From Tubulanus polymorphus (taxonomy: Eukaryota > Nemertea > Palaeonemertea > Tubulaniformes > Tubulanidae), in NCBI RefSeq assembly GCF_964204645.1, contig NC_134030.1, forward strand, positions 9,918,278 through 9,982,277: 64,000 nucleotides of DNA, in the 5' to 3' direction. The position numbers and the translations under genes are program-made. Shown piece by piece: positions 2,982 to 37,800 of the stretch. Within the stretch, counting starts at the first letter, position 1. Each line of letters starts with the position of its first letter. The notes beneath the pieces were generated by a model, which had not been told where the DNA came from, made no database searches, and was given only the letters and a program-made list of their open reading frames with translations.

Positions 2982-11329
<8,348 letters not shown>

Positions 11330-11919: not shown

Positions 11920-13300
11920 TGTTGTCTGGCGAACACCAGTTTGAATACAATATAGTGGACCTCTGTAGTATCCTCGCCCCGCTTGTCAATCATATTAGCA
12001 TGAGCATGTGCAGTCTGCCGAGTCGGAAATAAAACAGTTGTATTCTGCACATCAAACGAAAAGGTCATCTCTCATTCTCTCTGCATCGAAATGATTTCTA
12101 CTTTGGAACTCCAAGATCTCCACATTTGGTGCCGTGACCAGGATCGCTGAGAAAATGCCCGAAGACAATAGGAGACGACTTCTACGCTTACGAGGTCCCT
12201 ATCGGAGCCCGATTACAAAAACGAAAGACAAGATACAAATCATTCTATACAGCAAGAAGATTATCCGAAACAGATTACGGACTCCGTACGTTCAAAAAGT
12301 CGACAAACTCATAGCATTAGATGACAGCATACTCCATTTAGCGATGCTGAAATGGAAGAATTTCTCACCACATCCGACGATTACAACACAGAATTGGCCG
12401 AACAAGGACAATTTTTCAATTAAGAATCGAGAAGTAAGGCTACTGCAGTTCTCCAACTCAATTAAACTCAGGATGTAAACGAACAGTGAATCTTCCGAAA
12501 TAAACTCTTACATAAGAGAAAATGATGTTCGATGGGAACATTTTGGACTGGGTGGAATTCTATGAGGCATTCAACTCCGCCGTGTCATCCGATCAAAAGC
12601 TTATCCAATGTACAAAAATCCAATACTTGAAAGAATACTTATATATCCGTATGATTTCGTTTTTCTTCTCTTCATTTTCATCTTATTTATTTTTCTTTCT
12701 TCTCTTGGGCTGCATTCTTTTGTATAAGCTAACTGTTGCTTCAAAGCGGTCCTACATTTTTAATGTATTTTCTTACACATTAATTTTGTAAAAATTATAC
12801 TTGTAAATAAATCATATCATATAGGCCTATAGTCAAGGTCCAACTCGAAGGAGAAGCGACCCACGTGATCAACGGACTTGTGTTAACAGAGGGAAATTAT
12901 GGACATGCCATAGAACGACTTATCGACAGGTATGGTCAGAAACATATCATAATCATTGCGTACATGCGGGCATTGTGGGAATTAGGAAAACCGTTGAACA
13001 ACTACAATTCGTTGAGAGAATTCTATGATAAGTTAGAATCATACATTCGTGCGCTGAAATCACTTAACAAACCGGAGGAGGATACTGCAGTAATTCAGGA
13101 ACGAAAAACATCTACGTACCGATCAACAGATTACACGTCAACGCGGTGGCAATATTATTTGACTAATTACAGATTTACGGGTCTCACTATATTAAAAAGA
13201 AAATTGAGGCTGAAAATAGATCCGAAAACATGTTATTTTGTTATTCGTCAGAACGTCAGAAAAATTCGCTATTTTCCGAAAAATCGCTATTTTTGATTTA
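11920..13300 (+). mobile_element. Degenerate BEL/Pao LTR retrotransposon (5' LTR and partial gag)
   Basis: The duplicated host sequence shared with about 20,370 stops at ATATCAGTTG and the insertion begins TGTTGTCTGG. A short 5' LTR (about 11,920-12,124, ending CACA, with AATAAA) is followed by a primer-site-like TGGTGCCGTGACCAGGAT. Gag-like pieces follow. RRRLLRLRGPYRSPITKTKD begins near 12,170, FDGNILDWVEFYEAFNSAV near 12,525, and INGLVLTEGNYGHAIERLID near 12,870. They show the F-x-G-x4-W-x2-F and GL-x-LT-x2-NY-x2-A spacing of BEL/Pao gag. The pieces are in different frames, interrupted around 12,640-12,835. No pol or 3' LTR is seen, so it is a truncated relic. Confidence 0.65.
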
Positions 13301-20134: not shown

Positions 20135-21950
20135 CCTGACTTTGAATTCATATTATGCTGAAGTGGTTCGAAGCTTAGTTAAGTGATTATTCGACTTGAA
20201 ATAGATTCATGTTAGGTGGAGTCTGACCTATTTCACTGGGTACTTTAGCTGCTGGAGTCTGCTATATCACTGGTATATACTGCCTGCCTGTCTCAATGTA
20301 TTATAGATATTTCTTGTTAAGTCCATAGAGGCTTCTGTTCTCTTCTGCTAAATACTTGCGCTGCTATATCAGTTGCTGATACCGGTAGTACGTGATTTAT
20401 TCACATTTCGTAACAAAACAATACAATTTCTCGGAATAAAAGCTGCTTATATAATTCAATAATGTATTTGTAATAGTGATCTGATATCTTGTGAGTAATT
20501 GATTCACTAAAGAAACTTCAGTGCTGGTGCTTGTGGTGTAATTTGCTTAATTAATGCAACTATTTTTCCTGTCTCAGATTTAACTTAATGTTATTTATGG
20601 TGCTATAGATAAATAAATTGATAGTTTTAATCTATTATGAAGTTTGTTATTCTGGAATCGATATATTTTTCAGCGTCCTGTTTCACTGAGAAACCTTAGT
20701 GTCAGTGGTATATCGCTAACGCGACCCCTGGTGGTTCACGCGAGCTCTTTAGTATAGGCAGTATACGGAGCTCCGCGAACCGGCCATTCTCAGGCATGAG
20801 TGGCTTAGAATGGGACCACAAAATGCTTAGCTTTTAGTCGAGTTACATGTAACTTGTAACATTATATATGATGGGCAGTCAGCCCCTGATATTGCATATA
20901 ACCTGTTCTTCATAGTGAAACGTAAGTGAATATTTGTAACACCCTGTAACGCTATATGAAACACTAGTAACTAAAAGTGAAAAATCTGTAACGCTATGTA
21001 ACACACTGTAACAAGGGTGTAACAGGCTGTAACGCCCTGTAACACCATGTGAAACCCCTGTAACTAAAAGCGAAATATGTGTAACGCTATGTAACACCCT
21101 GTTACAGGGCGTTACAGCCTGTTACACCCTTGTTACAGGGTGTTACATAGCGTTACACATATTTCACTTTGAGTTACAGGGGTTTCACATGGTGTTACAG
21201 GGCGTTACAGCCTGTTACACCCTTGTTACAGGGTGTTACATAGTGTTACAGATATTTCACTTTTAGTTACTAGGGTTTCACATGGTGTTACAGGGCGTTA
21301 CAGCCTGTTACACCCTTGTTGCAGTGTGTTACATAGCGTTACACATATTTCACTTTGAGTTACAGGGGTTTCACATGCTGTTACGTGGCGTTAAAGGGGT
21401 TTCACAAGGCGTTTCGAAATAGCGTTACAGGGCATTACAGCCTGTTGCACCCTTGTTACAGGGTGTTACATAGCGTTACACATATTTCACTTTGACTTAC
21501 ACAGGGGTTTCAGACTGTTACTGCATTAGGATATTTGCATTCTTTGACAGTTTCGCAAAGTAGATTGTATGAGGTTACAGGGCGAAAATATCCTTTTGGC
21601 TTTCCAAAAATGAAGTACGACCTAATGTTACATGTTACTTGTAACTTGATGGGAAGTTAAGTATTTCTCTGTCCCATTTTAAGCCTTATATATTCTCAGG
21701 ACTGGGTGAACGTCCTGTTATTTACATTTTTTGCCTTGGTATTTTGTTTGTTTGTATGGTTTCACTTAAAAAGTCCAGAGATTCCCCGGGAGTGACTTAT
21801 TCGCATTTATCCTGAATTGAATGTGCCATGGTGCTAAATACAACGAGCTTGCTGCTATTTTGGAATTAGACTAAGTGGAACTCAATTTAATCACTATCAC
21901 TCAAGTTGTCTCTATTTCAATAGTTCCAATTTGTATTTGGGAATAAATTG
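20135..21950. other. Gap without gene between trefoil B flank and the transposon
   Basis: Contains the duplicated flank up to about 20,370, unique AT-rich DNA, the GTTAC satellite, and AT-rich sequence after 21,540. No coding signal. Confidence 0.5.
20930..21500. repeat. GTTAC-word satellite arranged head-to-head
   Basis: Units of about 94 bp are built from repeated TGTTACA/GTTAC words. Units left of about 21,100 read GTAAC and those to the right read GTTAC, so the array is a large imperfect palindrome centred near 21,100. No gene is seen in it. Confidence 0.85.
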
Positions 21951-22059: not shown

Positions 22060-22068
22060 AGTTTAAAG
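22060..22068 (+). repeat. Target-site duplication, left (AGTTTAAAG)
   Basis: The nine bases are identical to 33,708-33,716, immediately outside the terminal inverted repeats. Nine bp is the classic MULE duplication length. Confidence 0.9.
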
Positions 22069-22112
22069 GCAAAAGGTTGAAAGCCTGTTTTGGTCGATGG
22101 CGAGTGACGTCA
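22069..22112 (+). repeat. Left terminal inverted repeat of the MULE
   Basis: Forty-four bp, matching the reverse complement of 33,664-33,707 with one mismatch. The inner end contains the palindrome GTGACGTCAC, a CREB/ATF-type site. Confidence 0.92.
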
Positions 22113-22771
22113 CTAGTACAAATTCCGAGCGGTTCGAATCCCACAATACGCCAAAATCACTACGGCCGCTCTGAGCGCACATCGCATTTCAACGTTGCCG
22201 TTTAATAATTGTAAAATAACTAATAATAGTTTAAGTTTTATAAGGGTTAGAAGTACATTGTATTTACTGCTAGTGTATGTATATATCATGTACGGTTGCG
22301 AGAAATCCCTGCCCTAGTTAAACAGTAAGTCCACTAAATCTTTAAATTTTAAGTTGTTTAATGAAACTATTATTGTTTTAAATTGTTAAAACTGCAAACT
22401 ATGGTTGTCGAAGATGCACCTTCTTCACATCCTTTGAAATCCTAGATAGCATCGCTGTCGGCAAAGACCTTCAGGTCTGTCTTCAACGGCACATCGCTTT
22501 GGAACAAGCGACTACTGTGTTATCAAATCTGAACTAGGTAAAAAAATGTTCCCCAAAAATAAAGACAAGTAAACGGATTAATTTGAGGTTTGAATGTTTT
22601 TGTTTATTTGTTGGTTCAAATCGAACCCTCGTCATCCTGATCTCCATAAATCTAAGAAAAGTATTCGCACACTTAAAACAATAAAATACGAGCAATAAGC
22701 AATAACATCAGACTGGAGTAAGTAACTTTACTTAATTCACAGATACAATCCTACACAAAACAATAGCTATT

Positions 22772-23012
22772 CAGTGGCGGATCCACCCCTCTATTTTTAC
22801 CGATGTAGCCGCAAATCTATGCGTTACTGAGTAAAAACCGAATGAAATCTTTCTATTAAGTAATGCTCAGAATGCACCTGCTTGCATCTATTTTTCCAAA
22901 AAATTTTTAGGAAGGGTCTTCGCGTTATCGGTGCTTGCTCTGGAATGGCTTACAGCCATCTGTTGTTGCTTTCATTTGCCCCCCCCCCTTCAAAATGCTG
23001 GATCCGCCCCTG
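22772..23012. mobile_element. hAT-like MITE nested in the MULE
   Basis: It starts CAGTGGCGGATCCACCCC and ends TGGATCCGCCCCTG. CAGNGGCGGATCCA ends are common in hAT derivatives. No clear 8-bp duplication was found. Confidence 0.6.
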
Positions 23013-23149
23013 AGTGCAGACAAAATGATCGACAAAGACATACAGAACTCTAAAACAACAGTTAACAATTTAAGCAACGATAGACAAAACAGATAGCTGA
23101 TTACTTTACAAACCTGTTGTCAGAACCTTAATTATTTTTACATGTACAT

Positions 23150-24020
23150 ACAGAGGACTGTTAACAATTCAACCAATGAAATTGCGATAGAGATACAGAA
23201 CATACAGCTTTAACAGTAAACAATGCAACCAATGAAATTGCGATAGAGATACAGAACATACAGCTTTAACAGTAAACCATGCAACCAATGAATTGCGATT
23301 AACTAAGACCTACGAGCAATTATCAAGTTTGATAATTGCTCGTAGCTAAGACATACAGGACAAACAGGACTAACTTAATTGCGATAGACATACAGGACAT
23401 ACAGGATTAACAGTAGACAATTCAACCAACGAATTGCGATTAACTAAGACATACAGGACTAAACCACAGGACATACAGGACTAACAGTAGACAATTCAAC
23501 AACCAATGAATTGCGATTAACTAAGACATACAGGACATACAGGACTAACTTAATTGCGATAGACATACAGGACTAACAGTAAACAATGCAACCAATGAAT
23601 TGCGATCGCGATCACAAAGACATACAGGACAAAACCACAGGACATACAGGACTAACAGTAGACAATTCATTAACCAATGAATTGCGATTATTTAAGAAAT
23701 ACAGGACTAACTTAATTGCGATAGACATACAGGACATACAGGATTAACAGTAGACAATTCAACCAACGAATTGCGATTAACTAAGACATACAGGACTAAA
23801 CCACAGGACATACAGGACTAACAGTAGACAATTCAACAACCAATGAATTGCGATTAACTAAGACATACAGGACATACAGGACTAACTTAATTGCGATAGA
23901 CATACAGGACTAACAGTAAACAATGCAACCAATGAATTGCGATCGCGATCACAAAGACATACAGGACAAACAGGAATAAACCACAGTAAATTGCGATAAA
24001 AAAGACATACAGGACTAACT
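23150..24020. repeat. Subterminal tandem array of the MULE with 337-bp higher-order units
   Basis: Built from words ACATACAGGACTAACAGTA, CAATTCAACCAATG and AATTGCGAT(TAACTAAG). The block starting GACTAACTTAATTGCGATAG at 23,368 repeats at 23,705. AATTGCGAT occurs more than ten times. Subterminal repeats often bind transposases, but binding here is only inference. Confidence 0.85.
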
Positions 24021-24333
24021 GCAGTAAATATATAGGGCCTTAGGAATGCAAAATTCATTCATTTTGTCATTTGTAAACATTCCACAACTTATTTCATTAT
24101 GTCATTTCCAGTTTTCAAAGGGAATTTTCTTAACTTCAGATGCCTCGAGGACATAGAGCACTATAAACACCAGTGCATATACATCGCTTCTTAACCTTAT
24201 ATATAATCGAGTAAATATATAGGTGACTAAGTGACGGTCATTATAGGCTTCTACGTTCACCATGGGAAATGAAAATATTTCTAACGTCAGGGATTCATTC
24301 GAAACCCGATCAATAATATTCTATACAAACTAT

Positions 24334-27300
24334 TTAGGAAATCGGGTCACAATGAAAACAAAACCACCTGATATGTTCAGGAGGAGCCTCATTGATTGGA
24401 GCACATTTCCAATGATACCATCTATGGCAATTATCACATTCAATTGAGAATGTGGACTTTTTCTTAGGATTAGCATTGCAGTTTTTGTGGCAGACAGGGC
24501 AGGTTTCAGCAACTAACCGAGAAGGGGTTTTTTCAACTTTTGATGACAAAAGATTATCTAGTTTCAATTTTGCTAGGTTTTGGAGGCCTGCATTTCCAGG
24601 TTGATCTATAAGAATTTCTAATTCTTTTTCAGAATTGGAATTATTGATTTCTGTAATAGGAGAACTGTTGAGATAATCATCTCTATTATTATAATCGATT
24701 ACAATAGATTTTTTCTTATGATGATTATGTTCAATACGAATGTGCTTTTGAAGGAATGTTTCACTTGCATATGAATTAATAACCCCATCTGCCCAACAAA
24801 TAGCACATGAGATAGGTTTCAAAGATGAATGAGAAGTGGATATGTGCCTATCTAGTTCCCTGCGACATGAACAAAGATATGGAGGATTTATTTTGTCTTT
24901 AATACAAAAGGAACAGACAATACTTTTTTCAAATAAAACAGACTTCGAGTCATTTTTAACAACTGGTATTGACTTAATATCTTTTGGTTTGGTATCTTTT
25001 GATTTTTTTGGTAAGGATGATTTATTCTGACTTAAAATATCTGCTGAAAATTCGATATCATTGCCAGGATCTGGATCAGTGGAGTCTATGGTTTCAATTT
25101 CTGATATTTTAGCTTTTTTACCTAGTTTGATAGCAGCATTTTCAACCATAGCAGAAAAGGATACACCTCTGTTAGCAGGTCTAATTATCTTTCGCCCTCC
25201 GTGTCTTGCATTCTCAGCATCTTTAGGCATTGTAACCTTAGGACAGTAAGGGTCTATCACTTCAAGTTCAGGAAGGTTTATGGCAACCTGATTGTCCTTG
25301 ATTGGACCCTCAGCACGCCTATGAGCCATATTGTGAGGTTGTCGTTTGGCAGGTCGTCCGCTTATTAACTTAATTCCACAGTGGCTTTCATTATGTAAAA
25401 TACTTAGAATGTGCCCTTTCCGAGCAGCATTGATATCATTCGAGCTAGCAATGTGGGAATGATCTTTTAACTTATCAATGAGGGTAGATGAAACAGAAAT
25501 ATTTTGTCGAGTAAAATTGTAAGTTGGCAGAGGCTCCACAATGTGGAATTTATATGCATCAATTAAAGCCTTCGTTGTGGTTATATTGTTTTTTTGGGCA
25601 AAACAGGCAAAAAGATGTTTGCAAAAATATGGTTGTCCAATCATTATAAAAGCTTCACAAGTACATATACCTAGTTTCAAATTGATTAAATGGCAATTAC
25701 CATCTACGTATGAAAGACAATTTTCAGGAACGATTGTAATAACGTAATTGAATAAGATACGACTGGATATTGAATCTAAATTTCCTATGTACCTTCGGCA
25801 TTTTTTTGAAATGTCATATGAATGTTCCTCGGATATTGATACTTTATCGGGGAATCTTTCTTCTAAAACATCAAGCTGATTGAATGTATATTGAGTATCA
25901 CCATTGAAAAAATTATCATTATCTTCTAACCTATTTAAGTTCTTTCGTGAAGAACTCTTCACAACAAACCAATTAGTTTCTTCATCATATTTTAAAATCT
26001 CATTATTCTGTAATAAATCAAAGGCTCTTTTGCAACACTTTTCTATCTTTTCAAGGTGACGTATATTCTTAACTCGTTGGTCAAGTTGCTTAAATTGGAG
26101 ATTGTTCATATTTGTCGCTTTGATCTCATCATTAAAAACATTTTCAAACAGTAATCGTACAAAAGATGATATCAGTTTATTTAGGTGTCCACTTAAGTAG
26201 ACATCATCTATTTGTTTGAATTTGCGCTCAGTAATATTATCAGTTAATAGCAAAGGGTTATTTCTGTTAGATTGGTCTGACTGATAAATTGATTCAGCAT
26301 TGAATGCATCAGACCAAATTTGGGAATTAAACCAATTCTTCTTTAGGTAATCAATAAATAATGTTTTTGTATCTTGCGACATAAGGTCTAAAGAAATATC
26401 ATTCTCAATAAAACTAATAAATGAATTGGCTATATCAGTTCTAGAGGAAGCATCCCATGATCTCATAATGCATTTGAAACCAGTTTCTAGAGGCTTGCAA
26501 AATAAGCGAAGTTCTTGATTTTCATTCATGAAGCGACGAATACACTGCAGGACATGAAAATTACATAGTACTGATTTAAGATTATTGTCAGATGCTCCTT
26601 GCTTTAGACTTGCATCTTTATCATGTTGTACAAAAGGACAAAATCTAGATGTTGATGAACATGGCTTGATTCTGAAAAAACCATTGCCATCATTAAATAT
26701 ATAGAATTCAGATGGATGATTACATTTTTCGTCTTTACATGGTGTATTGGCTAGAACTAACTGGATGGTAGTTGCATGAGTAGCCCCCCCTTCATCACTA
26801 CTAATTGATGCAGCAGCAATACGTCCTTCATTTTTGTTGTCTGCAAAAGTTACAAATGAAGTTTTGAATTTCCACGAATTGAAATCATGTTTCACGTCAA
26901 TACCAATGACAGATTGTCCAAAGTTGGATAAATGTTCCAGAGAACGAGGATCAGAGAGAATAATGTGATAATTACGTTTGAGTGTGGCATCCCCTCGTTG
27001 AAATAAAAGGACAGATTCATAGTTACCCTCTAATAATTTTTCAGTATTTCTCCAATCAGAACTTAGAATAGGTATTTCGTCTTGAGATTTCATATGTAAT
27101 TTTATCGAAGATTTATCAATATATTTCAATCTATTTGAAATTTGATCTAGGGTATGGTCATGACCGGCGCCATCATTTACATTTGATACATGAAGGTTAT
27201 TGTGAGCATTGGTGGCAGAAAGAACCTTCATTGCTGTGGCTTTCATCATGACTCTATTTTCATCCCATCTATCTCTAGTAGATAAATTAGGTCGCTTTTT

Positions 27301-30300
27301 AATTTGTAAAGGAATATTGTCATGATATTGACCATTAAGTGGTTTGCTGAAGATTCTCCACTTGGATAAATCAGTACTAAATAATACAAGTTTTGTTGCC
27401 CAATAACACATAAAATGAGGGTGAATTAATTTTTTTGGCTCAAACTGCTGCCTTAACTTCACAGGACGATCACGTTTATTCTTCAGCTTATAGTTGTAAC
27501 AGTTGGAACAAAGTGTTTCACCATCAGCATTTTTCCTCCATTTGTTAGACATGGTAATGGAGCAATGAATACATTGTTTATCATTTAAAACAACGTCAAT
27601 TTGACATGAGGGACAATTAGTGATGTTACTGGACATATTCAACTTTGAAAGATAATATCCACATGATGATTTACAAACTGAAGACTTTGACGAACATTTT
27701 ATGAGCATTTCTGCAGCCACAAATTGAGAAGTATCCTCAACAATTGGCTCAATAAATTCAAATTTATTATCTAATCTATGGGTTTGCCAATTCTTTTTTA
27801 ATGTTAAGGAAGCTTTCATCGTTGTCTGGTTACCAACAAATGAAGGCCGCACATTCTTATGCAGACGAACTGTTTTTGTAAAATCAAAAGTGAATCTATC
27901 GAAATAATATTTTGTGTCAGCACCAGTCATTACTTCCCCATTTTCAACCCATTCATCACTAAGTGGATTCTGGTTGTTGAGGTATTTCTTGATAGTGTCA
28001 ATGGCTACCTGGTCATTTGTACCTTGGTCTGTACAATGAAAACTTTTATACTTCGTCTTACTGCCAGTTGAATGAAAAGCAACTTCAAGATAATGCTTTC
28101 CTCTCCTGATGCGATGGGAGATAGTAGTTTTAGAACCATTAATATGGGAAGTTAATGGTTCAGCTGAATTTAGAGTTAATGAGGATTGAGGATTCAAAAT
28201 TGAGGATGTAGATTCAGGTGTAGATTCATTATTCGAAATTGGTGTAGATTCAGGTGTAGATTTAATAGTCAAAATTGGTGCAGATTCACTATTCGAAATT
28301 GGTGTAGATTCATTAGTCAAAATTGGTGCAGATTCACTATTCGAAATTGGTGTTGATTCAGGTGTTGATTCATTAGTCAAAATTGGTGCAGATTCACTAT
28401 TCGAAATTGGTGTTGATTCATTAGTCAAAATTGCTGCAGATTCATAATTCGAAATTGGTGTAGATTCAAGTGTTGATTCATTATTCAAAATTGGTGTAGA
28501 TTTAGATTTGGCTGTAGTTAAGACTGATTTGCTTTTTTTAGGGGCAATATAAGAGTCTGACATCTTTAATTCAGAACTAGCTAGTGTATTATTTGACTCA
28601 GTTGATCGTTTATGTCTCTGTCTGCGAGATAATCGTGATATCTTAGAGAAAGTAGTACTATTAGCAGTAGGTTGAGATGACTTTGAGAAGAGTTGAGTAA
28701 TATCAATTAGATGTTTCATAAGCCAATTAATCAATATCAATCTAACAAAATCAGAATAGTTAGAAATGTTCTTAAGATAAGATAATTCATTGGGAGATGA
28801 AAATACACTTGAAATATCCTTTTCATAATAGGTTGCAATGCAAGCACCAATTAATGTAGCAGGGCCACAGACAGATGAACATGATTGGAGTGGGTAATAA
28901 CTAGTACAATTATTACTACATACATGCACTGAATTTTCAGTAACAAAATGAGGATCATGGAGGTGGATATAAACAGGATCAGGGCAATTCAAACCTTTCA
29001 AAACAGATCTTAAATGATTTTTAAATTCCCTTGGACAATCCCATGCTAGTGTATCAGCATAACACAGTTTGTTACTTTTTGGGTAAAAAACTGCTAGTGC
29101 ATAATGATTGGCAACAACATGTCCATAAGAATTTAGAAATACGAAATCGTTTTGGGTGCCAACATGCAGGAAAAAAATTAGTTTATCACAACTTATGAGT
29201 GGATTAGGACCGAATCTTTTATATAAATTTGAAACATATTTCTTAGCATCAAATGTAAGTGGCATCATAAATGCATGAATATTACAGTACTGTTCATTTA
29301 TCATAGATGCAAAAGCATTTAACACAGATCCTTCAAACCATTTTTGATTAGTCATCGTCTGAAGTTCTGATACAGATACGCTATTATTATTACCAACTGG
29401 AAATTGTTGAGAGGGTTTTAAGGAAAAGAGCATATTTGAAAATGCTTGAATCTGTTCCCAATCGACTGAATCAGTGGGGCTTAAAGGCTTACTATTTACC
29501 CAAAGATTCATGGCAAAAAGATCTTGTTGTTTGGTTTTAGCATAATGTAAGAAAAGAAACCTATTAATCTGATCAATAGAATAGCAGCCTGTATCGAGTC
29601 TCACATGGATATTAATGGAAGGGTCACGGACAATCCTTGACTGCATCTGTGCTTTTATGTCCTCCAACTGATTTTTGTGGGGCATAGTGGGGGCATCATC
29701 AGCCAAATGACATGAATTAGACATGTCACAAATTCTGAATGACGTGACCTTTGATGGCATAACAGGAGGAATTTTCAAAAACTGATAGTCATTGAGGCAC
29801 ATTTCTGTTGGATTGTAACTAAAATTTCTTCTACATACATGTTCATCATCAGAATCATTCTCATCACTATCATCAATTATGATTGGTTCGATACCTCCAC
29901 CACCTGTGATACTTAGCTGTTTTTTGTTTTCCATCCAGCTATCTTCCTGCATCTTTAATCTTTCTATCCTTTCTTTCGAACTATCTTCCTGCATCTTTTC
30001 TGCTTCCTCTATCGTTCCTTCCGAGAAATTGTCACAAGCCGCGTCCTTTCCTTCTTCCTCCATTGTCCGCCTGAAATACACATTATCAACTCACTTTTTT
30101 TAGACATATGAATAGATAGAGTATGAAATTACCCATATAGGCCTAACATAAAACATGGGTATCTCTGAGTCATTTGCATTAAGTCATTTAGATTTGTAGG
30201 TACTAAATTAATTGAATTATGTTGTACTTACATTTCAGTATGGTTTAAACTAACATGGTCTAGAAGATCTTTCCAATTGGTGAATTCAACTCCGCAAAAA

Positions 30301-32027
30301 CATGTCGAGTCAGCAGGATCCGTCTGTGGATGAATAACCTAATGTGGAAGAGCACATTAATCTGTTTTTGCTTCAACATCTAAGCAAAAATAACAAAAAT
30401 GAACCCGCATCTCGCAGAAAGGGCATCAAACTTACATGTTCCACTGACTTCCTTTTTCTGTTAAATCTTTTAGTATTGTGACAACTTCTATTGTAGCATC
30501 CCTGAATATGAAAACAAAGCTTTACAGCATAAATCATACCAATACCAATGAATTTCTATAATTTCATTTCGAGAAACATATTACTCACGTTCTTAGTCTG
30601 ATAAAAAGGAGTAAATAATTGAGGCTTTAAACAAATAGCAACACCAGCCACATCAATTTTAGTCATGTACTGGAAAAAAAAGACAGATTTGTGCATGCAC
30701 AGCCTTTAGGTAATTGTGAAATAAAAGTGACCAAACTAATATTAAATCATAAGTTCTTGAGATGATATGTACCTGGTCGAATGTGAAAAAGGCTCTTTGA
30801 TCTTCACAACAGAATTGTTTCCTTGTATGATGCGCAACGTCAAAACTGCTATACTGGATTGAAGGATACAAAAAACTGTTAAAATATATCTAACTTTATA
30901 AAGATAAATCACGTACAAATCACTTAGGAAAACAACTTTACCACTATTGTTGAATCATCCCATGCTCTTGCTTGATCATCCTTCAATTTGTTTTTTGCTA
31001 TCAGCTATCAATATGATTCATTAATTCAATGCAAGGATTTTGAATAAAGTGGTTTCGTATTCAAGTTATAAAAACTAATTGCAAATCATTCATTTTCTAG
31101 GATATCAATGCTAAATGATTACCTTTCGTCGATGGACTGCTCTACTTCTTTGCATCTTTTCAATCTCATATGGAAAGTATTGAGGGCACCTGATTAAGAA
31201 TCATTCATTATTTCCAGTACAATCATAAAATTTATGTAGTTTGCATACCTGGTAATTGGATAAAATAATGCAATTCTACGTACATTTCATCTTCATTTTT
31301 CAATAGCAGTAGTTCCATTATCCTGTTATTTATGAACTGATTTCCCTTACGGCTGGGGTGTAACAAGTCAGTCCTAGATCACAAAATTTAGAAAAAAACA
31401 AGTTAGTTTAAATCGCGAAAAAATGCACATAACCTACTGGGCTTATTAAAATTAAACGATTACTTACGGTGAAAGGAGATCTCTTGAGAAGTGAAAATCA
31501 ACGAACTTTACACCAAGTGTAAAGCATTCGCGGTGCAGCATTTCATTGTAATGAAATATTTTTGTGTCAGCATCGAAACTTTAAAAAAGAAAGAAATTTA
31601 AAAATCATTACATCGATCATAAATATAGTACTTCAAGAAAAATCTATTCTTGATACTTACTCATCACATCGAGGAAAAAGAGCTGGTACAATGATGGTCC
31701 CAGTACATTTATAGAGCAACAATCGAATTAATTCAACGTGTCTTCGCAGAACAATCTCAAGCGGGACATCACGCGTCATATTATTTGTTCCAACATGGAC
31801 GATTAGTTGTTCCACATTCAGCATCTTCACCTTTTTCAATTCTGTAATATACAACTAATCAGTAACCCAATGAAAATGAACAATATAAATCAGTACTGAA
31901 CCGAGAAATTACCTTCCATCAATGTTTCAATGGTTCCTCCGGGGCACACGATCCTTGTCCATTCAAATAAGCCTACACCATCTAGCCCAGCATACTTTAA
32001 AATGCTGTCTGCTACGAGACCAATACG
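24334..32027 (-). CDS. Multidomain MULE transposase: SGNH hydrolase + Ulp1 protease + DDE + SWIM + PHD
   Basis: Exons read on the minus strand: 32027-31913, 31841-31661, 31578-31468, 31373-31284, 31189-31123, 31004-30942, 30853-30773, 30669-30589, 30501-30436, 30338-30232 and 30070-24334. Phases agree throughout and give 2,232 residues from the first resolved exon. An upstream start exon is missing; 33,544-33,479 is one candidate. SGNH hydrolase: ADS with Ser8, GTNN 56-59, DLLH 138-141. C2H2-like finger about 298-318. SUMO-interaction-like IEPIIIDDSDEN about 381-392. Ulp1/C48 protease: H643, D660, Q716 and C722 in VCG. Ser/Thr-rich repeat about 845-945. GATA-type finger about 1154-1178. DDE: D1379 (IGIDVKH), D1471 (QHDKDASLK), CNFH near 1490, E1602 (NITERKF). 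SWIM CTC-CKH 1790-1806. C2H2 fingers 2040-2102. PHD 2178-2228. The donor of exon 31373-31284 (gtacgt) is the weakest junction. Confidence 0.82.
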
Positions 32028-32039
32028 CTACAAAAAAGA

Positions 32040-33600
32040 TTATTTGTCAGTCTCAGGCCAATATCACAGGGAGGTGTGAGAGAGCACACTGGTTACTGTA
32101 AGACCCTACTACATGCAAAAGAAGTGACACATATATGTATATCAATGTGATAGAATTGATTGAAAAAATTGTGCATAATAGTAGCTAGTGCCCAAAAATA
32201 GAACACAGTGTTATTGAAGTGAAAATTTCTAAAATCCTCTGAAGCGGTGCTTATTTGGTAGCTACATGGGTATTCTAATTGAATAAGCATAAAGATAAGC
32301 GTGCACACACAGTAGCCTATGCATAAACAAGGGCCAGTTTCACCTTCACCTAAAAGTCCTGCAGTGTGAAGACTAACTTGTTCACCTAAACCACCTCTAC
32401 CAGGCTGTGGAAGGCCTAACATCAGGCACTAAATTAAAAGATTCCTCTAAATCAAATTATCTATAAACATCCTCTTAATTGCAGGCAGACTGATTCAGGG
32501 AGGGGTGCAGCCCAAAATAGGGCATACATATCAGTATCATATATAATTAAAAATCAAAAGGGCACCAGATCATCAGAAAACATAATACCTATATTTTGGA
32601 AGTAGGCCTACAGAGAACATGTTTTGGAATATAAGCTTTTTAAAAATACTTGTTGATATTTTTAATTTTTCCTTTAAATTTCATTGCGACTTAAAAGTTT
32701 TAAGGGGTGTACACCCCTGTATACTCTCCTGATCTGCCCCTGAATTGCCACTTAACAAAATTTCTCAGCTTAATTGTTGGCTAACTAGCTCAGTGAAACT
32801 GGGACCAGACCTAATGCATACACCCTCAGTGGCCAGGGCCAGGATTAAACAGTTAGGCTACGTATATAAATAAAGGAATGAAAAGTACTTATCCTGAAAT
32901 TGGTTAGGCTATCTATCTGCAACAAGAAATACATTTTCATTGACTCTGAATACAGGGAACTACCATTCTTCTGTTTCGAGGCCTTAAAATTTATTGTTTA
33001 TTTTTTGTTGCTGGATTTGGAATGGTTGTTGGAATATTTAAGGCCTAGTAGGTGGTGACTGTGTACGGGCAACATAGGCCTATACCCAGTGGCATGGCAA
33101 TGGCATGCCACTGGGTACCCACTACTGCACTATAGTATACTGCCTACGGCTACTGCGACTGGTGGTTCGGTTGGCAGAAATTACTTGTTAACATGGGGGG
33201 GGGGGGGAGGGGGGAAGTAAGCGTGGATGAAGACAAATTAATTTAGCCGAGTAAGTAGCAAGCAAGTAAAGTAGTGGCAGTACAGTAGGCCTAGCGACAA
33301 TGTGAGTGTGGTGGTAACGTGGCCGTGGTGGCAATAACAAGACTCCAAAACTGGCAAAAGCCAAAATTAAAAAGCCCTGCCGCCGCGCGGTCGCGACGCC
33401 TCGCCTGCACCACCGTGTACGATCCTCGCGGCGTTCACCAGTGTTACCCAGTGAGTTTTTTATAATCTTGCAATCTACCTCTTTTTTCAAACCAATATTC
33501 CCACCAACTGGTCCGGAGACAAGCTTAACACGTTCGGAAAACATGATTCACAATCTTTTAATCAACAGCCAGCAAGAATACACTTGACAGAAAATTCAAA
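32040..33600 (-). other. Right interior of the MULE: presumed promoter and first exon(s)
   Basis: No exon here is certain. A CpG-rich block (about 33,360-33,450) contains the start of a minus-strand frame MFSERVKLVSGPVGGNIGLK at 33,544. A GT after LKKE (33,478) would splice in phase 0 to the SGNH exon at 32,027. A short G-run lies at about 33,194-33,215. Other open frames (for example 32,093-32,422) look non-coding. Confidence 0.35.
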
Positions 33601-33663
33601 TTCAGCGGTTAACCGTTAAAAGTGAGTTGTTTAGCTGTGGGAGTAACAAAAAGGCGATCTTGA

Positions 33664-33707
33664 TGACGTCACTAGCCATCGACCAAAACAGGCTTTCAAC
33701 CTTTTGC
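33664..33707 (-). repeat. Right terminal inverted repeat of the MULE
   Basis: Reverse complement of the left repeat with one mismatch. It contains TGACGTCA, a consensus CRE, 40 bp upstream of the STT3B start codon. Since only 9 host bases separate it from that ATG, this repeat must now form the proximal leader or promoter of STT3B on this chromosome, if the gene is still expressed. Confidence 0.92.
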
Positions 33708-33716
33708 AGTTTAAAG
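33708..33716 (+). repeat. Target-site duplication, right (AGTTTAAAG)
   Basis: Identical to 22,060-22,068 and directly followed by ATG of STT3B. With the ATG it forms AAGATGGCGG, a YY1-type element often found at start codons of housekeeping genes. Confidence 0.9.
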
Positions 33717-34798
33717 ATGGCGGACACCGGGAAACACGATATACGGGGCGCCCTGGCTAATCCCGGTGGTTGGACGAGTCTGTTGACGTTTTTTATCTTG
33801 TGCCTGGCGTGGTTGGGTGGATTTTGTTCTAGGCTATTCGCCGTTATCAGATTCGAGAGCATTATCCATGAGTTCGATCCTTGGTAAGCGATTTTAAACG
33901 CCAAATCATCGTCGCGTCGGTTCCTGCTAATTCATTTCCACGCCACCAGGGGGAAGCACAACGAACATGTTTTCTGCGGGTAATTCGCTATGAGAGCCTA
34001 TCATCAACGTGGGGTTGATACCATAACTAGCCACAGTCAGTGCAGCAGGCAGGCACTTTCGCAGAAGTCACTGAATGAAGAATATGCTGCCAAGTCCAAA
34101 TTAAATTTCTCTCATCTCTGTCCCTCCTTCTTTCTCTTGGCTTTTCCCGAGTTATGTCACGGGTGTTTGTTGATGGTTTGGATTTTGTGGTTGATAATCT
34201 TGTGAGAATGGCACTAGATATACTGATTCTTAACAGCCTATAAACAATTTCAACGCAACATATTTCTGTGATGTTTTGAATTTATTTCCAGTTTATGTTT
34301 TGCGCCATTCCATGCCCATCAACAAACACTGGCTTGAAGCTGTCAATGTCCGTCAATGCTTGAACCAATACCGGGCTTGGGTCTAGAATACAGCTCCTGG
34401 TGTTATTGATAATTTATGTATTTGTGGTCGGCAATAAGATAGCCAAAGAAGAGAAATGCCAAATGCTACTCGTTTAGGCTTTCAAGAACAGTGGTCACGA
34501 TCATTAAACCTCTCTTGAACCTTTCTTTAATCCTGATGAAAACTACACCAAAGACATAAGATAATAGCGATAACGACTGAACTGAGTTCGGATGTCATTA
34601 CATACTTAATAGGCCTACCTGTTTTTTGACCAATCAGTGGTCCAAAAATTAGGCAGATTAAACATGTTGGACCAGATGCTCAGAAGTTTGTCCAAGATAT
34701 TACCACAAATTGTTTTATATTCTTGTATTCCGATGGTATTTTGATGATTTCACAATTTCATGAATTACTATCGGCAGATACATGTTACATGTGTCTGC

Positions 34799-34841
<43 letters not shown>

Positions 34842-37800
34842 TTAGTGATGATTTAAGTTCATTGTGACTATGGTACATGATGCACCATAGTAAAAATTAA
34901 CTTAAATCATCACTATGTCTACTATCGACTGGTAAACTTTTGAGCTACTTGTCTTTGTTAGCCATATTAATACTTTATATTCAGTCTAGATCGAATTCTC
35001 CACGGATTTCTCTATTCGACAGGTTTAACTACCGCGCTACGCATTTCATGGTCGAAAAAGGTTTCTATAATTTCCTCAATTGGTTCGACGAAAGAGCGTG
35101 GTATCCCCTGGGTCGTATCGTTGGCGGAACTGTAAGTATATTATCCCTTTCGTTGTAATGTTTAATCCTTTCGCTGCAAGCGGGGTTGAATCATGGTGTG
35201 GCAGGGTGGGGTCCCCGGGTTGAAAGATTAAAGCAATTCGAATACGAGAAAACCATTTACTTTTGATTGGGTCTAATTTGTTATGATGTTTCCTTGATGA
35301 AAATAGCTAGAAATACTATTTCCGATCTCCCACTGTCATGAAACTGCAGCCGCATTACACACAATGAGCCCATGGCTGACCCTGAATCCTTGTCTGGTTA
35401 TTCTAAAAAGATTTGATCGGTGATCGCCACTGAGCCACAATTGGTCAACAAGGCTCGATCGAGCCTGATACAACTTAAATTACTCCTAGCCCTTTTATTA
35501 ACTATGTTCGGAAGTTATGAAGTAGAATAGCTTTAGATGCCCATCTGGCGGTAATACGTAGTGTCGAAGTAATCAGTTGATATTGATCGTCGATCTCGTC
35601 TCTGTTTCCAGGTCTACCCGGGTTTGATGTTAACGTCTGGTTCCATTCATTGGATTTTAAACATTCTCAACATACAAGTTCATATCCGTGATATATGCGT
35701 GTTCCTCGCCCCCATCTTCAGGTATGTGTAAATTGTATTATAAATAACCATGATGGAAAACCATTCTAGTATGATCTTGAATCTTTCACTTACGTATACC
35801 GTACTGTTAAAGGGATCAGTTGAATTGGTTCTTTGGTTTCCGTGAGACCCTTATCCCATATTGTCGGTCTGTGTGTCTGTCTTTCAGCTCTACTTAGGTA
35901 GCTGTGTAAATTATTACAGTGGGTTGATCTTGATGAAACTTGGGTTCAGAGTTTGCATCGGGGTCTTATTGCGCGGTGCAAAGAATGGGTGCTGTGTGCC
36001 ACTTGGCAGCAGAACTAGGCACTAAAAACTCTTTTGCGACAAGGCCTTGTAGATGATCACCTAACTGAGGAACTGGTTCGAAATGTAAAAATTAAGCTTG
36101 GCAAATTAAGCTATTGGCCCTAGATGCAACTTATCCAAAATGCGATGGGAACTAACGCATGGGAATTTTGGAGTTCCAGAGTCAAGCCTGATCGCAAGAA
36201 CCGTTGTCGCCTGTGGCTTGTCTTTCACTTCAATGGATGGTACTGTCTGTCAAACCCGCTTAATCGAGATTAGTTTGATCCGGATTTCAATCTAATCAGG
36301 ATATCACACGCCTAGCCTATACGTGAATATGTGTGAGATAAGATTTAAGTCCGGATTTCTGAAAAAAGCAGACTAATTTCCTCGGTTCGGAAATAATCCG
36401 GATTAAGCGACTTGGTTAGATGTCTAGGTTGTACATTTTGATGCCAGGTTCGCTATCTTCTGGGACTGTCAATAGGCCTAGCCTGATGAAGTGACGATAA
36501 TGGAGATAATTATTAGAGTATTTTGAGTGCCAATATCTACGTCAGTGCGTGTGCGTTCGGCAATGTCAGTTTTATTACGTATCTCTTGACTATGTAATCG
36601 GTCATCTCTCCCTGGGGTGACGCATCATTGATGTTACTACCCCTAGCGTGTGGAATTGTCATGAATGCTGAATGCTTGAAACGCTCGGCTGGTTAGGCCG
36701 CTCACGAAACTTACTGTTTCCTGGTTCATGATAATAATAATTTCATTTTGTCATATATGGACATTATGTATCTAAATTTTTCATACACACTTATACTACA
36801 TCATTACACGGATGTATGGAAAGCCATCATCGGCTGTGGATCCAAGGAGGGAACCATACACCCCGCAATAGAACAAAACAAAGAAATTAATTGCGTTGAT
36901 AAAAAAATTGAAAAATGATTGAATGATGGTTATATTCATTTTACGCCAAAGTAAAGAATAGCAGTAGACAAACTTGAGACACGTAATCGTAAAGCCTAAC
37001 CCATTAGCACTCAAGCCGCCCGAATCCGCCCGGCATTTTTTTCGTATGCTGCACGAAAACGGTTATAGTGGGATTCGAACCTAATAGCTTATGATTAACT
37101 ATACACCTAAGTCCTCAAATACCAAACAGAAATGAACATCCTCCTATTTCAATTTCTCGAGTATTTCGAGTTTGAACATGACACATCACTTCAAATGTAA
37201 TTAAGTTTGGATGAATTTTGGGGGCCAAAAGGACACGAATTTGGTGGCCCACCTCATCAAATATTACATCATATGAAAGCCTTGACTGTTTACTACAAAA
37301 TAACACTAACTTGTAATGCATGGAAATAAACAGCAAATGAACTATCCCATTAGCACTCAGGAATTGCACTGTAGTGTCAATTACTCCTTAGAAAATTCAA
37401 GGTAAAAATCTAAGTTCATCACCACGACTATGGCGATTACAGAGTTAACCCATTAGCACTCAGGAATTGCACTATGTAGTGTCAATTACTCCTTAGAAAA
37501 TTCAAGGTAAAATCTAAGTTCATCACCGCGACTATGGCGATTACAGAGCTATTTGGTTTCGTGATGAACTTAGATTTTACCTTGAATTTTCTAAGGGGTA
37601 ATTGACACTACATAGTGCAATTCCTGAGTGCTAATGGGTTAACTCTGTAATCGCCATAGTCGCGGTGTTGCGACATTTGCTACGCTGATATCCGCACGCC
37701 CGCTGACTTTCGAGCGGTTTATGTCGGCGCGAAAAAGTTCCTCGCGCCAGTTCGAACAGATCGGCAGCTAGCGGCCTACTCCTGACTGAGCAAACGTAAA

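Follow-up and report, generated by a model that had tools for sequence, protein, structure and literature searches.

A window of 64,000 nucleotides from the nemertean Tubulanus polymorphus (contig NC_134030.1), i.e., the whole stretch analyzed here, contains a transposable element of 11,639 bp (positions 22069-33707) that is intact, multicopy, recently mobile, and bounded by terminal inverted repeats (TIRs) and a target-site duplication (TSD). We consider it very probable that this element is a cut-and-paste transposon whose one gene encodes a predicted multi-module protein of 2,254 residues; i.e., a Mutator-like element (MULE) resembling the Rehavkus group, with an unusual N-terminal module, an SGNH hydrolase. 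The sequence analysis itself shows the boundaries and TSDs of the element, its near-identical copies, derivatives that share a deletion, the order of the domains, and the presence of SGNH in two further families (fam2 and fam3; the family of the window element is fam1). The near-identical intact copies also make the element testable.

Boundaries and copies of the element

The gene lies inside the element, whose terminal features are the following:

22060..22068, no strand: left TSD, AGTTTAAAG, an exact 9-bp match to 33708-33716 that abuts the TIR
22069..22112, plus strand: TIR of the 3' end, 44 bp, identical to the inverted 33664-33707 at 43 of 44 positions
23163..23943, no strand: minisatellite between the stop of the open reading frame (ORF) and the 3' TIR (Tandem Repeats Finder, TRF, periods 56, 77, 166 and 171)
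33664..33707, minus strand: TIR of the 5' end, with TGACGTCA, inverted partner of 22069-22112
33708..33716, no strand: right TSD, AGTTTAAAG, paired with 22060-22068

The sequence ACATACAG occurs 23 times on the plus strand, each time within positions 23038-24005 of the window. The TIR pair was first detected as a 51-bp inverted match, and a stretch resembling a tRNA B-box nearby raised the reading of a short interspersed element. This candidate was rejected: the TSD lies directly against the repeats, no tRNA was detected by ARAGORN, and the core of the repeat recurs in inverted pairs.

The genome (268 Mb, 77 contigs, denoted C1 and so on) was searched with a 33-bp core of the TIR, which gave 65 matches at three or fewer mismatches and none with a reversed-pattern control. 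Fifty-two of these matches were paired by hand into 26 elements, taking the nearest match in opposite orientation, and 13 were left unpaired. A perfect 9-bp TSD was found in 20 of the 25 pairs tested, namely the window element and 19 of the 23 pairs of one batch, and not in another pair, at C4:12.47 Mb, which has three mismatches in one of its ends. The other failures are the pairs at C1:1.59 Mb (the same eight bases, shifted by one), C2:12.9 Mb, C4:18.6 Mb and C1:25.5 Mb; a pair on C13 that reaches the contig edge was left out of the count. Cross-pairings among the 23 pairs gave a perfect 9-bp match in 0 of 506 cases.

The 1,918-residue main frame of the gene has at least 33 matches in the genome, at least seven of them complete and free of stops, the window's own included; these are lower bounds, from 25 scored candidates of 774 seen at first look. 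Matches to the SGNH exons were counted once per place, giving 27 places, with a place at C4:9.94 Mb (29% identity) excluded as a 28th. They lie inside 19 of the 26 TIR pairs, and the remaining eight places lie outside pairs. Eleven shorter stretches (L088-L098) were also examined. Four of these, L088, L089, L090 and L091 (C3:19.92, C11:12.98, C3:6.47 and C6:22.71 Mb, respectively), share one internal deletion and have a perfect TSD of their own; L091 has a second deletion. The shared deletion removes exons 6-11, the protease and the DDE-like core, and retains SGNH exons 1-5 and the 3' part from SWIM to PHD. Such a pattern is expected of non-autonomous derivatives moved in trans, which these four elements may be.

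At C2:19705419-19722669, two TIRs with a perfect TSD are separated by 17.3 kb, about 5.6 kb more than in the window copy; this is probably a nested insertion.

Structure of the gene

The gene was rebuilt on the minus strand as 12 exons with GT-AG at all junctions, comprising 6,765 nt and encoding 2,254 residues. The first-pass annotation of this stretch had joined ten small exons in phase to a 5.7-kb exon, with an AT|G junction across 30232/30070 that keeps the frame, and had counted 6,699 nt, or 2,233 codons, from 32027 down to 24334. The rebuilt splicing bears out the phase and the AT|G junction, and the count is exact, with the stop included among the codons. That model had no start codon, and the exon with the ATG, at 33544-33479, had been overlooked. 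The start ATG lies 120 bp inward from the inner edge of the 5' TIR. This first exon is identical in seven of seven other long copies, and the leader in exon 1 of fam2 is similar to it. A protein deposited at NCBI, P0001 (1,995 residues; 'uncharacterized protein LOC141914437 isoform X2 [Tubulanus polymorphus]'), is identical to residues 260-2254 and independently reproduces junctions 9/10, 10/11 and 11/12. The exons, all on the minus strand, are given here with the evidence for each:

33479..33544, minus strand: exon 1, with the start ATG (22 codons, phase 0, GT donor)
31913..32027, minus strand: exon 2, SGNH blocks S30 and G53 (splicing, Pfam, alignment, fam1-fam3 substitution pattern)
31661..31841, minus strand: exon 3, SGNH block GTNN with N80 (splicing, alignment, fam1-fam3 substitution pattern)
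31468..31578, minus strand: exon 4, SGNH (splicing, fam1-fam3 substitution pattern)
31284..31373, minus strand: exon 5, SGNH block D160xxH163 (splicing, alignment; conserved in fam3)
31123..31189, minus strand: exon 6 (splicing; fam3 similarity)
30942..31004, minus strand: exon 7 (splicing, codon score)
30773..30853, minus strand: exon 8 (splicing, codon score)
30589..30669, minus strand: exon 9, with Met260, the start of P0001 (splicing, protein match)
30436..30501, minus strand: exon 10 (splicing, codon score)
30232..30338, minus strand: exon 11, N-terminal C2H2-like finger, CxC variant (splicing; counterparts in fam2 and fam3)
24334..30070, minus strand: exon 12, 5,737 nt, with the protease, GATA-like, DDE-like, SWIM-like, C2H2 and PHD modules

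Because P0001 repeats three of the junctions and the SGNH profile match spans exons 2-5, the junctions are better than chance. A codon score trained on exon 12 versus the introns was positive in the claimed frame for all 11 small exons; in exons 6 and 10, one alternative frame outscores the claimed one in the same test. In the seven other long copies, exons 1-11 retain their splice sites and their frame, with three amino-acid changes in total. That is, the protein encoded by these exons is identical to that of the window in five copies, and differs at one residue in the copy at C2:2.99 Mb and at two in the copy on C8. The transposase-like ORF is the only one in the element longer than 120 residues.

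The predicted splicing would place SGNH and the transposase in the same protein, though perhaps not always. The same transposon might make two proteins, with the SGNH exons in one transcript and the transposase translated from Met260, as in isoform X2, from another promoter. We regard this arrangement as unlikely, if well worth keeping in view. P0001 begins at residue 260, in exon 9 and downstream of the SGNH exons, and a protein search with residues 1-400 returned P0001 only; both observations speak against a single protein. The two-protein arrangement is also favored by the four shared-deletion elements, which keep SGNH exons 1-5 without the protease and DDE modules. It is disfavored by exons 6-11, which are open and in phase from SGNH to exon 12; by introns 2-11, in which there is no AATAAA or ATTAAA; and by fam2 and fam3, in which SGNH, C2H2 and protease follow in this order on one strand. 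The single multi-module protein is thus retained here as the predicted product.

Eleven small exons ahead of one long exon are also what raised the reading of a domesticated host gene, i.e., a fusion of host SGNH exons with a transposon-derived exon; so many introns are unusual in DNA transposons. All exons, however, are enclosed by TIRs that a perfect TSD flanks, the same exons are found inside TIR pairs at many loci, and SGNH occurs again in the diverged families. The TSD, TIRs and copies led us to reject a domesticated gene, and we give a host fusion hardly any probability.

Domains of the predicted protein

From the N-terminus, the predicted protein consists of SGNH, a C2H2 finger, an Ulp1/SENP-type protease, a GATA-like finger, a DDE-like core with C-x2-H, a SWIM finger, a pair of C2H2 fingers and a PHD finger. 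The catalytic sets look complete, as had been noticed at first reading: S30, G53, N80, D160 and H163 in SGNH; H665, D682, Q738 and C744 in the protease; and D1401, D1493 and E1624 in the transposase. The profile searches that the first-pass annotation proposed gave a divided outcome. SGNH and PHD scored just above the Pfam cut-offs and GATA below, and MULE, SWIM and Peptidase_C48 gave no match in the window protein. SGNH, the Ulp1/SENP-like protease and the TAF3-like PHD are supported by profile, fold or sequence; the SWIM, GATA-like, C2H2 and DDE assignments are putative and mainly motif-based. The modules of exon 12 map as follows:

28654..29661, minus strand: Ulp1/SENP-like cysteine protease, residues 480-815 (profile and Foldseek)
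28204..28515, minus strand: Ser/Thr-rich repeat linker, residues 862-965 (TRF periods 24/48/60/108 nt)
27499..27573, minus strand: putative GATA-like zinc finger, residues 1176-1200 (Pfam GATA E 0.0013)
26179..26991, minus strand: putative DDE-like transposase core, D1401, D1493, C1512xxH1515 and E1624 (motif, invariant in four relatives)
25615..25665, minus strand: putative SWIM-like finger CxCx11CxH, residues 1812-1828 (invariant in fam1, fam2, P0002 and P0004)
24727..24915, minus strand: putative pair of C2H2-like fingers, residues 2062-2124 (motif; Pfam zf-H2C2_2 far under its cut-off)
24346..24501, minus strand: PHD finger, residues 2200-2251 (Pfam PHD 25.6 bits, cut-off 24)

The SGNH module matches Pfam Lipase_GDSL_2 at 33.9 bits, relative to a cut-off of 32.9, over residues 50-170, which include the G, N, D and H positions; the S30 block lies outside. 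It also weakly matches Oskar (E 0.008) and the esterase of the ZfL2-1 ORF1 protein (4c1b, E 0.04), and alignment with the latter places the S, G, N, D and H positions in register with those of the window protein.

A protease profile built from three relatives matches yeast ULP1 (1euv) at E 1.5e-5; the catalytic residues H and D align, and Q-x5-C is placed by motif. An AlphaFold2 model of the protease has a mean predicted local distance difference test (pLDDT) score of 55.5, and the nine Foldseek matches to this model with E at or below 0.001 all belong to Ulp1/SENP proteins; their TM-scores are low (0.21-0.33 relative to query length) and their root-mean-square deviations large. Pfam C48 did not match the window protease.

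The GATA-like finger misses the Pfam gathering score (18.7 vs 26.8 bits). The residues D1401, D1493, C1512xxH1515 and E1624 are unchanged in fam1, fam2 and the related proteins P0002 and P0004. For SWIM, a weak Pfam match is found in P0004 (E 0.53), with none in the window protein. The closest solved structure to the PHD finger is the PHD of TAF3 (E 2.8e-9), followed by CXXC1 and BPTF. The PHD fingers of TAF3 and BPTF are readers of histone H3 trimethylated at lysine 4 (H3K4me3).

SGNH in diverged families

The fam2 element at C6:15.72 Mb has a 1,787-residue open frame, with 44% identity to the window protein over residues 953-2252 and 34% in the protease. Upstream and on the same strand, four exons splice in phase into a complete SGNH (Pfam E 2.3e-9), which is followed by a CxC-type C2H2 finger, the protease, the transposase and PHD (E 8.1e-7). 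A minisatellite (74 bp x 28; L023 5365-7456) lies directly 3' of the ORF, parallel to that of fam1. In fam3, at C7:9.33 Mb, SGNH, C2H2 and protease are on one strand, with a DDE match just downstream. Its SGNH is 42-47% identical to that of the window in raw tblastn stretches, introns included, and 61% identical in a spliced alignment; the Pfam E-value is 1.6e-8, on a piece joined from tblastn stretches. SGNH matches exceed the Pfam cut-off in fam1, fam2 and fam3, and the S, G, N, D and H residues are invariant among them.

Between fam1 and fam3, silent differences per site (pS) in exons 2, 3 and 4 are 0.58, 0.71 and 0.77, near saturation, and replacement differences (pN) are 0.19, 0.28 and 0.24. 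This excess of pS over pN is as predicted by constraint at the protein level. The positions of the SGNH introns agree between the two families. Within the fam2 SGNH, dN/dS could be taken from one pair with five changes, too few for an estimate. The presence of SGNH in both diverged families means that it was not captured recently; judged from these sequences, it seems to be a durable component of the element rather than a chance passenger.

Several observations weigh against this conclusion or against the overall interpretation. The SGNH of fam2 turned up at just three places (C6, C7:10.44 Mb, and in part on C39), and none was found beside the fam2 protease matches on C10 and at C6:15.29 Mb. 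A search of 19.8 kb around fam2 gave no convincing TIR. The fam3 locus has two tandem protease matches (C7:9329217-9332042); the match nearer to SGNH contains a stop, which indicates that this copy has decayed and has perhaps been rearranged. In the relatives P0002 and P0003, Pfam found no SGNH, nor did hhalign in P0002; the N-terminus of P0002 had been considered as half an SGNH, and was rejected at an hhalign probability of 0.2-0.5%.

The corresponding alternative is that SGNH is neutral cargo picked up from a host gene. MULEs and Helitrons are described as capturing parts of genes (PMC6431247, PMC4021074). The full catalytic set in three families, the silent-change excess between fam1 and fam3 and the common intron positions all run counter to a passenger, which we judge improbable.

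Relation to known transposons

The first-pass annotation had named the product a single MULE protein. One element-encoded gene is indeed predicted to join all modules; membership in the MULEs is not established by sequence. No Pfam or NCBIfam transposase model, PF10551 included, matches the window protein, and the AlphaFold2 model of the transposase (pLDDT 34) is too poor for a fold search; both results tell against a MULE. The putative C-x2-H between the second D and the E would agree with the motif rule of MULE DDE transposases, and many MULE transposases carry SWIM fingers, of which the motif here is a candidate.

The TSD of 9 bp falls within the 8-11 bp range given for the MULE superfamily (PMC6446971). 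In the same source, Rehavkus is described as a MULE-like group with TIRs of 26-400 bp, a 9-bp TSD, a single ORF, PHD, and a minisatellite ahead of its 3' TIR (Dupeyron 2019, PMC6446971). The window element likewise has a 9-bp TSD, TIRs within that range, PHD, a minisatellite before the 3' TIR and one ORF. It differs in that the table row for Rehavkus gives PHD and the minisatellite only, whereas SGNH, Ulp1-type, GATA-like and SWIM-like modules are predicted in the window element, and in that the hosts listed are arthropods and annelids, whereas the host here is a nemertean. The 9-bp TSD, PHD and 3' minisatellite thus point to the Rehavkus branch of the MULEs, a likeness of described structure.

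Plant MULEs carry Ulp1-like proteases, and the window element shares with them an Ulp1-type protease in a MULE context. It differs in SGNH and the TAF3-like PHD, neither of which appears in the table of PMC6446971; the main text of that paper does not contain Ulp1. Nor are PHD, SWIM, peptidase or GDSL found in the main text of a survey of MULEs across arthropods, published in 2026 (PMC13359780).

A different or undescribed DDE superfamily, e.g., one allied to KDZ (Kyakuja-Dileera-Zisupton), is the less probable assignment, though a substantial one. The absence of a Pfam transposase match is in keeping with it, as is P0003, which carries a KDZ-associated CxC4 domain (E 1.3e-7), a protease homologous to that of the window protein (26%, E 2.9e-29) and a PHD under the cut-off. 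The similarity of P0003 to the window protein is limited, however, to the protease and a weak PHD-like stretch, with no common DDE similarity and no SGNH found in P0003; the KDZ CxC cysteine cluster has no match in the window protein; and the 9-bp TSD, PHD and 3' minisatellite fit the description of Rehavkus. Given this KDZ-associated homologue, the protease seems to pass from one kind of transposon to another. On present evidence, the element is of the MULE/Rehavkus kind, possibly as a deeper lineage.

SGNH is known from other mobile elements. The ORF1 proteins of CR1/L2 long interspersed nuclear elements (LINEs) include esterase types and PHD types (PMC4120745), and the SGNH of CR1/L2/RTEX ORF1s such as ZfL2-1 has the same catalytic set as the window module (PMC3905857, PMC4120745); the latter, in contrast, sits in a DNA transposon with TIRs, a TSD and a transposase-like ORF. 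Bdelloid long-terminal-repeat retrotransposons and Athena retroelements also carry a GDSL/SGNH hydrolase, but as retroelements and, as described, in a separate, unfused ORF3 (PMC5408684). In fish, the SGNH gene Texim is mobilized by a Helitron, and is described as a separate gene with no transposase fusion (PMC4021074). Neither a fusion of SGNH with a transposase nor the domain order of the window protein was found in the literature searched, which was mainly open-access, with Repbase outside its scope; the earlier suggestion of an undescribed architecture holds within that scope.

Predicted mode of action

The element would move by cut-and-paste transposition, making 9-bp target duplications. 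The zinc fingers may bind the TIRs and the 3' minisatellite, and the TAF3-type PHD may read H3K4me3 and so steer insertion to active promoters. The protease could strip SUMO or ubiquitin-like tags, or process the polyprotein. SGNH might serve as an accessory enzyme that deacylates, or that anchors the complex at membranes, by analogy with the ZfL2-1 esterase, which is proposed to work at membranes (PMC3905857). The role of the retroelement esterases is unsettled, and an SGNH kept in a transposase gene across diverged families argues for a use beyond reverse transcription or the assembly of ribonucleoproteins.

A more far-reaching proposal is a new lineage of animal DNA transposons, with a DDE core that matches no Pfam transposase model. 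The fusion of this core to a functional SGNH esterase, a SUMO-type protease and a TAF3-type PHD would be ancestral, and a single protein would cut DNA, edit SUMO or acyl marks, and direct insertions to H3K4me3 promoters. We put this forward as doubtful.

Insertion site and neighboring sequence

The element stands head to head with a gene for an oligosaccharyltransferase subunit:

33717..33884, plus strand: first exon of STT3B (human STT3B, 6s7t_A, E 2.3e-18)

The ATG at 33717 is the first base past the right TSD and opens 56 residues, of which 9-56 match human STT3B; we infer that it is the STT3B start. The 5' TIR and its TGACGTCA are just upstream of this exon. The insertion probably lies in the 5' leader of a housekeeping gene. 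The TAF3-like PHD and this site, a single one (n=1), suggest promoter-directed insertion; an element placed directly before STT3B thus provides a concrete targeting hypothesis.

Elsewhere in the window, units resembling TGTAACACCCTGTAACGC are densely arrayed, both in tandem and inverted, at 20902-21533, just outside the element. A 104-bp direct repeat with a 97% identical inverted partner of 110 bp forms a foldback-like structure at 37343-37670. An ORF at 12811-13296 (plus strand) resembles a gag-type segment of retroelements. Lastly, 5879-7685 and 8542-8950 are similar blocks of a tandem-repeat ORF array, accompanied by a long TA run.

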